A stretch of 64,000 nucleotides of DNA from Tabrizicola sp. (lineage in GTDB: Bacteria > Pseudomonadota > Alphaproteobacteria > Rhodobacterales > Rhodobacteraceae). Below, piece after piece: positions 4,286 through 6,598 of the stretch; the stretch's first letter is position 1, and every line of letters starts with the position of its first letter. The position numbers were made by a program, and so were the translations under genes. Under the pieces are notes generated by a model. It was not told where the DNA came from and made no database searches. It saw only the letters and a list, made by a program, of their open reading frames with translations. The stretch lies in contig JAEULQ010000116.1 in NCBI GenBank assembly GCA_016792685.1, positions 1 through 64,000 on the forward strand. Reading direction: 5' to 3'.

Positions 4286-4639
4286 ATGCAGGATCAGATC
4301 GAGGGCAAGCCGCTCATCAAGCCCTCCACCACCGATCATCCGCTTTATCCGCAGATCGTCGAGGCCTGCCGGACGGTATTCGACCCGGAAATTCCGGTGA
4401 ACATCTATGATCTTGGCCTGGTCTACACGATCGAGATCGGCGCCGAGAACGAAGTCGACATCACCATGACTCTGACCGCGCCCGGCTGTCCGGTGGCTGG
4501 CGAGATGCCCGGCTGGGTCGCAAATGCAGTCGAACCCCTGCCGGGCGTGAAGCAGGTCGATGTCCAGATGACCTTCGACCCGCCCTGGGGCATGGAGATG
4601 ATGTCCGACGAAGCGCGGCTGGAACTGGGGTTCATGTAG
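4286..4639 (+). CDS. sufT: Fe-S cluster assembly protein SufT-like (MIP18/DUF59 family)
   Basis: This 117-residue cytosolic protein belongs to the MIP18 (DUF59) family, which helps deliver or mature iron-sulfur clusters. The family signature DPEIPVNIYDLGLVY is at residues 31-45, and TLTAPGCPVAGEMP carries the conserved Cys. The ATG at 4286 follows GGGGAGCACC. A sufA-type gene lies 1.6 kb downstream, so the two Suf accessory genes are separated by the SatD-like/DUF3307 pair. The rest of the suf operon is not in this window. Confidence 0.88.
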   Translation: MQDQIEGKPLIKPSTTDHPLYPQIVEACRTVFDPEIPVNIYDLGLVYTIEIGAENEVDITMTLTAPGCPVAGEMPGWVANAVEPLPGVKQVDVQMTFDPPWGMEMMSDEARLELGFM

Positions 4640-4646
4640 CACAAAG

Positions 4647-4751
4647 GCAAGGTATTTGCCTTGCATTGCCAAAAAGCAAACCCAATAGATTGCATTTCAT
4701 AAAAGCAAATCTTTTTCCTTGCATTTCTTGAAAGCAAGGCGAATACTTTGC
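4647..4751 (+). repeat. 29-bp-periodic array of palindromes (candidate operator/iteron array)
   Basis: The AT-rich gap between sufT and the SatD-like gene is filled by three palindromes of form TTGC-N11-GCAA, starting at exactly 4661, 4690 and 4719. Further half-sites lie in phase: GCAA at 4647 and TTGC at 4748. The result is four GCAA and four TTGC half-sites alternating with a strict 29-bp period. The units read TTGCATTGCCAAAAAGCAA, TTGCATTTCATAAAAGCAA and TTGCATTTCTTGAAAGCAA. The last half-site reaches to 3 bp before the ATG. Such an array suits cooperative binding of a dimeric regulator; the downstream protein has a C-terminal HTH and is the obvious candidate binder, which is inference. 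Confidence 0.8.
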
Positions 4752-4753
4752 CC

Positions 4754-5407
4754 ATGACGCGCACCGTTGCCATTCTGACCGGCGACCTGATCCGGTCGAC
4801 CGAGGCCAGCCCCGAAGCCGTTGACTCAGCAATGGGCGTCATTCGCGATTGCGCGGCCCGGATCGGCCCGCGCACCGATTTCACCCGTTTCCGTGGCGAC
4901 GGCTGGCAACTGCGGCTGGAAAATCCCGGCGACCATCTCTGGGCCTGCCTGCTGATCCTCGCCCGGCTTCGCGCGCAAGAGGGTATCCCCGGATGCCGCA
5001 TCGCGGTGGGAATTGGCGCGGAGAATCCGACGGATACCAGGGATCTTTCAACTGCGCTGGGCCCGGCTTTCACCGCCTCGGGTCGGGCGCTTGACCAGAT
5101 GAAGCCCGACCGGCTGCTTGCACTGGACGGAGCCGGCATCGACGCATTCCGCCGCCTGGCCTATCAGGTGGCGGGCGAACTGGTTGGCCGCTGGACCACG
5201 GGTCAGGCCGAAGCCCTGGCCCTGAAGCTTGACCCAGACAGCCCGGCCGACGAGCGATTGTCGAACGAAGCCATCGCCCGAAAACTTGGCATCACTCGAC
5301 AGGCAGTGGACGCAAGGCTCAAGGCGGCGGATTATCCCATCCTCGACGACATGATGCAGGCCTTTATCGACGATTCCCTGCCCCGTGGGAGGACCAAGGA
5401 TGACTGA
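4754..5407 (+). CDS. SatD-like protein with cyclase-like N-terminus and C-terminal HTH
   Basis: This 217-residue protein resembles the SatD family (named from streptococcal secretion and acid tolerance genes; biochemical role unknown to me). The N-terminal half has ILTGDLIRST (D11) and FTRFRGDGWQ (D49), then a GIGAEN segment. This order recalls class III nucleotide cyclases, where two Asp residues bind metal. Residues about 169-192 (SNEAIARKLGITRQAVDARL) form a clear helix-turn-helix. The ATG at 4754 sits just after the 29-bp-period array, and no strong ribosome site is seen; an in-frame TTG at 4748 is an alternative start. It overlaps the DUF3307 gene by 8 nt. Cyclase activity and autoregulation are hypotheses. 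Confidence 0.8.
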   Translation: MTRTVAILTGDLIRSTEASPEAVDSAMGVIRDCAARIGPRTDFTRFRGDGWQLRLENPGDHLWACLLILARLRAQEGIPGCRIAVGIGAENPTDTRDLSTALGPAFTASGRALDQMKPDRLLALDGAGIDAFRRLAYQVAGELVGRWTTGQAEALALKLDPDSPADERLSNEAIARKLGITRQAVDARLKAADYPILDDMMQAFIDDSLPRGRTKDD

Positions 5408-6215
5408 AACCTTCATTGCCCTCCTCTTCGCCCACACGCTTGCGGATTTTGTCCTCCAGACCAACTGGATCGCGACGAACAAGCGCCATCCCCTTGCGCT
5501 AGGTCTGCATTTCGCCGCGGTCTACGCGACAGCCATTGCCGCCACCGGCTCGATCCATCCTGCGCTGCTTGTCCTGGCCCTTGTCCATATCGGCATCGAT
5601 GTCGGCAAGCTGCTGCTCACGGCCGCATGGAAATCGTCCGGCCGGTTGGGGCCGTTCATGCTCGACCAGGCGTTGCATCTTGCGACCCTCGCCGTGCTTG
5701 CGCTCTGGCTTCCCGACCTCTGGGCGCAGGGCCTCTGGGCCCCCGGCGCCATCGTGACCGGCGATGACACCGGCATCCTCGGCACCGGCATCTGGTCCGA
5801 GGAAACGCCCCTGCCCATCAGCCATCTGCCCGCGTTGATGGTGCTGCTGACTGGCCTTGTCCTCGCGACCCGCGCCGGTGGCTTTGCAGTGGGCCTGCTG
5901 ATGGAACCCTTCGCGCCGCATCTGGGCCAGGATGACGAAGGGAAAAGCCTGCCCGGTGCAGGTCGCGTCATCGGACAGCTGGAGCGCGGGCTGATCTTTG
6001 CTCTGGTCCTTTTCGGCCAGCCCGAGGGCGTTGGCCTTCTGATCGCCGCAAAATCCATCCTGCGGTTCGGCGCGGTGAAGGATGACCGTCGCCTCTCGGA
6101 ATACGTCATCATCGGCACGCTGGCCTCCTTCGGATGGGCGCTTGTCGTGGCCTATGCGACGGTTTGGGGGATGGCGGCCCTGCCCCCGCTTGGAATTCCG
6201 TCCGCGGCACCCTAG
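5400..6215 (+). CDS. DUF3307 family polytopic membrane protein
   Basis: A 271-residue integral membrane protein translationally coupled to the SatD-like gene (8-nt overlap, GGGAGGA ribosome site inside the upstream gene). Several hydrophobic segments carry polar residues: FAHTLADFVLQ near the N-terminus, VHIGIDVGK near residue 65, DQALHL near 90, and LERGLIF and AAKSIL toward the C-terminus. Conserved His and Asp within membrane helices suggest a membrane enzyme or transporter rather than a passive anchor, but I know of no proven activity. Co-occurrence with SatD-like proteins suggests a two-part system. Confidence 0.78.
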   Translation: MTETFIALLFAHTLADFVLQTNWIATNKRHPLALGLHFAAVYATAIAATGSIHPALLVLALVHIGIDVGKLLLTAAWKSSGRLGPFMLDQALHLATLAVLALWLPDLWAQGLWAPGAIVTGDDTGILGTGIWSEETPLPISHLPALMVLLTGLVLATRAGGFAVGLLMEPFAPHLGQDDEGKSLPGAGRVIGQLERGLIFALVLFGQPEGVGLLIAAKSILRFGAVKDDRRLSEYVIIGTLASFGWALVVAYATVWGMAALPPLGIPSAAP

Positions 6216-6238: not shown

Positions 6239-6598
6239 ATGTTTGGCATTCCCGGCAAAGCCGCCGTCACCTTGACCCAATCTGCCGTGCAGCAGATCGC
6301 CCGCCTGATGGAACGTCAGGGCAGTCAGGGCCTGCGCATCGGCGTCAAGAAGGGCGGCTGTGCGGGCATGGAATACACCATGGACTATGTCACATCGGTC
6401 AACCCGCTGGACGAAGTGGTGGAACAGGACGGCGCCCGGGTGATGATCGCCCCCATGGCGCAGATGTTTCTCATCGGCACGGAAATCGACTACGAGATCG
6501 GCCTGATCGAAAGCGGGTTCAAGTTCCGCAATCCCAACGTGGTCGAAGCCTGCGGCTGCGGGGAATCGATCAAGTTCCGCGAGACACCCGCCGCGTGA
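6239..6598 (+). CDS. sufA: A-type iron-sulfur carrier SufA/IscA (HesB family)
   Basis: This 119-residue cytosolic carrier holds a nascent Fe-S cluster and passes it to apoproteins. The three conserved ligands are visible: C41 in KKGGCAGMEY and C105/C107 in EACGCGES near the C-terminus. The ATG follows an AAAGGAG ribosome site. The gene starts 23 nt after the DUF3307 gene and so may be cotranscribed with it. Symbols sufA, iscA and erpA cannot be separated from sequence alone; the sufT-like gene upstream favours a Suf role. Confidence 0.9.
   Translation: MFGIPGKAAVTLTQSAVQQIARLMERQGSQGLRIGVKKGGCAGMEYTMDYVTSVNPLDEVVEQDGARVMIAPMAQMFLIGTEIDYEIGLIESGFKFRNPNVVEACGCGESIKFRETPAA

Follow-up and report, generated by a model that had tools for sequence, protein, structure and literature searches.

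A phased array of dyads in front of a satD-like/DUF3307 gene pair in Tabrizicola and its relatives, a probable autoregulatory operator

The window analysed here is a stretch of 64,000 nucleotides of a Tabrizicola sp. contig (JAEULQ010000116.1). In it, a gene for a 217-aa protein (4754..5407, forward strand), here called satD-like, overlaps by eight bases the next gene, which encodes a 271-aa protein (5400..6215, forward strand). This pair, the cassette, is flanked by two further forward-strand genes: an FeS_assembly_P gene (4286..4639), assigned by Pfam and by comparison of gene neighbourhoods, which we take to be sufT, and a sufA-like gene (6239..6598), presumably sufA itself, placed by its position in congeners. 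The second protein of the pair matches DUF3307 (PF11750) with 49.8 bits, the cut-off being 23 bits, and is predicted to be an all-helical membrane protein. Thus, of the SatD-like/DUF3307 operon proposed in an initial annotation, the DUF3307 half stands, whereas the first protein gives no match to the Pfam SatD model (PF16264, cut-off 29 bits) at E 1. The SatD profile has no match in the genome of the window or in control genomes. What the protein shares with the SatD family is an N-terminal GD motif, a similar length and a terminal helix-turn-helix (HTH).

According to structure prediction, the satD-like protein combines a class III nucleotidyl-cyclase fold, which spans residues 1 to about 145, with a C-terminal HTH, the latter as the initial annotation had proposed. 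Its likeness to class III cyclases such as Ma1120, Rv1900c and OaPAC consists of this predicted fold and of two aspartates, D11 and D49, which are invariant across 20 aligned sequences and align, in a profile match of low significance (E 0.11), with the metal-binding aspartates of Ma1120. In contrast to these cyclases, it carries the C-terminal HTH, and the columns that we assume to be the catalytic Asn and Arg vary among the 20 sequences; the Ma1120 profile alignment ends before those positions. At least 2725 protein clusters match the satD-like profile, with no Pfam domain in any of the 120 matches listed. Only one distant relative (L127) exceeds the SatD cut-off, with 42.2 bits. It is preceded by a 28-bp array, and its partner (L127:1395-1778, 127 aa) does not match the Pfam DUF3307 model, although by eye it looks like the C-terminal portion of a DUF3307 protein.

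The gap in front of the satD-like gene is filled by a regular array. GCAA occurs at 4647, 4676, 4705 and 4734, and TTGC occurs in phase at 4661, 4690, 4719 and 4748, both with a period of 29 bp; two more TTGC, at 4656 and 4666, are out of phase. Together, these half-sites form four unstranded GCAA-N10-TTGC dyads of 18 bp each, found by pattern match at 4647..4664, 4676..4693, 4705..4722 and 4734..4751 and spaced by exactly 29 bp, the last of which ends two bases from the ATG. The initial annotation had described three TTGC-N11-GCAA palindromes at 4661, 4690 and 4719 with in-phase half-sites at 4647 and 4748, in one regular array near the start codon. All of these positions are exact, and the two half-sites complete the first and the last dyad, so that the array is better read as four N10 dyads. 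The AT-richness that had also been pointed out is real, with 39% G+C in the gap and about 57-72% in its surroundings.

Such an arrangement is not expected by chance. When 4640-4753 was put through 20,000 dinucleotide shuffles, four dyads were never obtained, three were obtained once and two 19 times, and the three TTGC-N11-GCAA palindromes were likewise never obtained. In the whole window, TTGC-N11-GCAA has six matches for 1.25 expected, a number that none of 100 shuffles reached. The longer pattern GCAA-N10-TTGC-N11-GCAA occurs in series in this array only (six exact matches over both strands) in the genome of the window, which is 89% complete, with one lone exact match elsewhere (C96). When one mismatch is allowed, the genome has 16+9 matches, compared with 6+2 for a reversed control pattern. 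On the minus strand, dyad 1 and an adjoining T run (4647-4664) resemble an intrinsic terminator, with one such site found and 0.4 expected.

Relatives of the cassette were collected from several sources. In the genus of the window, 23 of 32 genomes have a relative, the window's own genome counted. The named genomes represent the best 80 of 341 relatives, chiefly Rhodobacteraceae and including three metagenome-assembled genomes (MAGs) labelled Gemmatimonadota; a phylum-wide sample of 398 genomes gave 21 with a match; and two further families gave matches in 42/118 and 68/121 genomes, from each of which 30 loci were taken. The first set of 95 loci was reduced to 92 by removal of three duplicates. 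The counts omit loci L002-L008, whose contigs are those of L028-L034, as well as the fragments L023-L026, and 10 of 73 distant loci were dropped where the pattern used missed the reading frame. The three Gemmatimonadota-labelled contigs (L074, L088 and L104) carry the cassette with Rhodobacteraceae-like GCAA arrays, which may reflect transfer or a binning error.

The initial annotation had proposed that the same palindrome and spacing should be sought upstream of related operons, and periodicity, rather than its absence, is what was found. In a motif-free test, the 150 bases preceding each start codon were scored for their best repeat lag in the range 20-40, and this lag was 27-30 (4 of 21 possible lags) in 131 of 149 upstream regions, or in 80/92, 21/23, 28/30 and 2/4 by set. 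Against their own shuffles, 110 of the 149 regions reach p 0.05 or better, and 106 of these 110 do so at a lag of 27-30. Similarly spaced rows of palindromes thus stand ahead of related cassettes across several lineages of bacteria, and the array of the window is real, conserved and operator-like. Its internal geometry can also be read from the upstream regions of the 95 relatives: from the start of GCAA to that of TTGC, 144 pairs have a distance of 14, and neither 13 nor 15 is among the eight commonest values, while the distance from TTGC to GCAA is 15 in 89 pairs and 14 in 14. These counts indicate that the N10 dyad is rigid and that the N11 stretch serves as a linker. The TTGC-N11-GCAA palindrome originally singled out does exist, but it represents the linker phase. 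Five more loci of the same family (L130-L134), outside the counts, were inspected by eye: two have arrays and RQ helices (see below), L133, also with an RQ helix, has degenerate GCAA sites, and no array was seen in L132 and L134.

The array belongs with the satD-like/DUF3307 pair and not with the upstream gene sufT. DUF3307 is present in 89 of 91 loci, and the exceptions (L035 and L020) are short; it is also present in all 63 distant loci, some duplicates among them. In contrast, sufT is present in 81 of the 91 loci and in none of the 63 distant ones, and the ten loci of the first set that lack it all have GCAA arrays. Five congeners lack the cassette; in these, sufT and the sufA-like gene downstream of it are separated by 63-159 bases that hold neither a satD-like nor a DUF3307 match, and no array was seen by eye in the four of these spacers that were read.

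The sequence of the half-site varies together with the predicted recognition helix of the satD-like protein (residues 182-191, encoded at 5297..5326 on the forward strand and placed by alignment and structure prediction), which in the window begins with an arginine at residue 182. Exact sites occur in 81 of the 92 non-redundant loci, with GCAA in 54 and TCAA in 27. Arg182 is found in 54 of 54 GCAA loci, of which 53 are informative, since L035 is truncated and its Arg is an alignment artefact. By contrast, Arg182 is found in none of the 26 readable TCAA loci, which have Pro (18), Thr (3), Ala (2), Gln (2) or Ser (1) instead. In the whole protein, residue 182 is the most informative column for the half-site class. 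Other families use GTAAC or GTAAT with SR[VAE]N, GCAA with RQN, and ATAGCC with QPS. Four classes can thus be described (RQ with GCAA, xQ with TCAA, R[VAE] with GTAA and QP with ATAGC), which were drawn up after inspection of the data and agree with the half-site in 120 of 122 cases; 123 of the 149 rows could be classed, 122 of them with a readable helix, and 26 were unclassifiable.

The two rows that disagree are L035 and L069, and the latter contradicts the rule, as it has Arg182 and yet TCAA-like sites; it is one of five loci with imperfect sites that were tallied separately. Six of the 92 loci (L068, L080, L096, L101, L017 and L018) have neither a GCAA nor a TCAA array. Read by eye, L017 has a third half-site, GCTGAA/TTCAGC, at 29 bp, with a different helix. 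L068, L080, L096 and L101 have the unusual helices QQA, PQS and QQS, and DNA binding may be lost or altered in them. On the best tree, which was built from the cyclase-fold domain only, the half-site class changes four times, and well-supported branches force one change; with so few switches, significance is out of reach for an independent-pairs test. The agreement between half-site and helix is a strong pattern on few evolutionary events (about four independent switches).

The position of the last dyad suggests a promoter. By analogy with relatives, a -35 element (TTGCAT, 4719..4724, forward strand) is predicted to begin with the right arm of dyad 3, and a -10 element (AATACT, 4742..4747, forward strand) is predicted 17 bp after it and six bases before the ATG, giving the order TTGCAT, 17 bp, AATACT, TTGCCC, ATG. 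A scan with a strict sigma-70 consensus found no promoter at the window's array. Among the relatives, the right arm of the last dyad lies six bases before the ATG in 37 of 86 arrays and 3-8 bases before it in 68 of 86. In these 37 arrays, the hexamer before the right arm is -10-like, starting with T (0.70), A (0.89) and T (0.81). Likeness to TATAAT is 2.83/6 in the last dyads (n=86) compared with 2.06/6 in the upstream dyads (n=178; p 2.8e-6). In 70 of 86 cases, a hexamer starting with TTG lies 17 bp upstream of the -10-like hexamer, a distance that is largely a consequence of the 29-bp period itself. A -10 element six bases before the ATG would imply a leaderless start at the ATG, and a ribosome-binding site cannot fit between dyad 4 and the start codon two bases away. 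In the relatives, then, the last dyad likely overlaps a leaderless promoter.

Self-binding repressors are common, and the array is quite probably an operator by which the predicted cyclase-fold HTH protein would repress the putative leaderless promoter of its own gene and thereby also the DUF3307 gene. One dimer would bind each dyad, and several dimers abreast, possibly acting cooperatively, would cover the promoter and shut out RNA polymerase, as the predicted -35 would be the right arm of dyad 3 and the predicted -10 the right-hand portion of dyad 4's centre. The cyclase-fold domain, which retains the two aspartates aligned with cyclase metal ligands, may serve as a sensor, so that the nucleotide held, or its product, would set how tightly the protein grips the array. 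The initial annotation had also suggested autoregulation through the HTH. This is partly supported, in that arrays precede most of the orthologous operons examined and the half-site tracks the helix, while the phase of the dyads needed correction. Against the autorepression model stand the few half-site switches, the exceptions to the helix rule, the loci that lack an array and the negative strict promoter scan. In addition, a step of 28-29 bp is not an integral number of DNA turns, and neighbouring dimers would thus not lie on one face.

It is also conceivable, although rather unlikely, that the satD-like protein is an activator, or a dual regulator that acts differently at low and high occupancy, and not a plain repressor. 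Dyads 1 and 2 sit upstream, at positions open to activators, and in the two other families the array is tens of bases farther from the start codon in many loci. Nevertheless, 68 of 86 relatives have the last dyad downstream of the predicted -10 and ahead of the start codon, and a protein bound there would block. Less probable still is a role for the array as RNA, in which hairpins in the transcript would control translation or termination of the cassette. RNA folding is indeed marked: 4640-4760 has a z of -6.0 and the entire array of the window can form one long hairpin, while over 81 arrays the mean z is -3.0, with 61 below -2 and local hairpins in 70. However, such folding is expected from any DNA palindrome, the long hairpin is seen in just 16 of the 81 relatives, and the inner dyad positions pair in 37-60% only, whereas the outer half-sites track the protein helix. 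In Rfam 15, no family was found, the sole match being SNORD126 at chance level (17.8 bits against a gathering threshold of 55, E 0.62). In addition, the predicted leaderless start would leave the array outside the cassette's own transcript. The RNA-level role that had been mentioned as an option is, in consequence, compatible with the folding but disfavoured.

That a different regulator uses the array, with the HTH agreement reflecting shared ancestry only, appears very unlikely. The small number of independent half-site switches would allow it; against it, the genome has no second array in series, the array is missing from the four cassette-free congener spacers that were read, residue 182 is both the best-associated column and the start of the predicted recognition helix, and other families have other half-site types before the same gene pair. 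Finally, an iteron-like or partition-like site, which the regular spacing and the plasmid location of some relatives might suggest, appears extremely unlikely, as the neighbours of the cassette here are ordinary genes for iron-sulfur assembly and the dyads overlap a promoter-like site in relatives.

With a first gene that is probably self-regulated, a second that overlaps it and encodes a predicted membrane protein, and an occurrence that is optional and in some cases on plasmids, the cassette looks like a toxin-antitoxin or guard module. Like type II toxin-antitoxin operons, it has a first protein with a predicted DNA-binding domain, palindromes over a promoter (here predicted), an overlapping second gene and a patchy, at times plasmid-borne, distribution; unlike them, its first protein has a predicted cyclase fold and its second is a predicted membrane protein. 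In Panoptes, as the accessible part of its report describes, the cyclase mCpol restrains the toxic membrane protein 2TMbeta (PMC12657230). Compared by description, each of the two gene pairs encodes a small protein that resembles cyclases, together with a partner in the membrane, but that part of the report does not mention an operator array. By analogy, Panoptes is the nearest working model for the satD-like/DUF3307 cassette. A PADLOC 2023 search at E 1, with a library older than Panoptes, gave no match for either protein. In a transposon meta-analysis, satD of Streptococcus pyogenes was, according to the accessible text, the sole accessory gene (178/249 genomes) scored as essential (PMC11323703), which is what an antidote would show.

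A more speculative proposal, which we regard as doubtful, is that the cassette is mobile and functions, so far unrecognised, as a guard or toxin-antitoxin module: a cyclase-fold antitoxin would restrain a toxic DUF3307 effector and a private 28-29-bp array would meter the pair, with arrays mutually orthogonal. Restraint of DUF3307 would act by contact or by the nucleotide made, as for mCpol with 2TMbeta, and the start of the recognition helix would set the operator address. If so, the family would be a ready-made natural set of repressor-operator pairs. More generally, the analysis of the cassette offers a way into two poorly characterised gene families; the role of residue 182 is now open to direct test, the operators are possibly orthogonal, and the results may bear on the essential score of an accessory satD in a streptococcus, as given in the accessible text of PMC11323703. 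In the open-licence literature, no report was found of a cyclase-fold family with a DNA-binding tail, strict array geometry and rewritten half-sites.

Ten plasmid-borne or other-phylum relatives were also considered, and arrays were called in three of them. L207 (Vibrio lentus) has three TTAGCC dyads at 28 bp; L216 (Pseudoalteromonas) has two GTAAC dyads at 28 bp with an SRVN helix, as the helix rule predicts; and L208 (Segatella) has a TTGATT dyad with an RQN helix, against the rule. The array caller found no such array in the other seven, among them L205 (Sphingomonas), whose TRQM helix is of the RQ type. On visual inspection, AACC/GGTT palindromes spaced by close to 29 bp were seen in L211 and L214, and a single GCAA-N10-TTGC dyad in L215 (Fusobacterium, SRQS helix). 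The first of these, pEC34A (L211:1792-3481), is a mobilizable E. coli plasmid of 3,770 bp whose listed genes are rop, mobA, a 51-aa hypothetical gene, a DUF3307 gene and the gene preceding it, which is read as satD-like judging by its motifs and HTH matches. Its DUF3307 is matched by five Klebsiella plasmids of equal length, and no near match was found among complete E. coli genomes. Another plasmid, of 4,424 bp, also carries a satD-like/DUF3307 pair, and in a Pseudomonas fragi plasmid the pair adjoins an antitoxin-type gene. In a single case, on a Sphingomonas insulae plasmid (L210:9192-13643, NZ_CP048421.1), the pair lies tail to tail with a Pycsar-type operon, its neighbours being a cyclase, an E2-associated protein and a Pycsar effector family protein, with a TIR-domain gene nearby.
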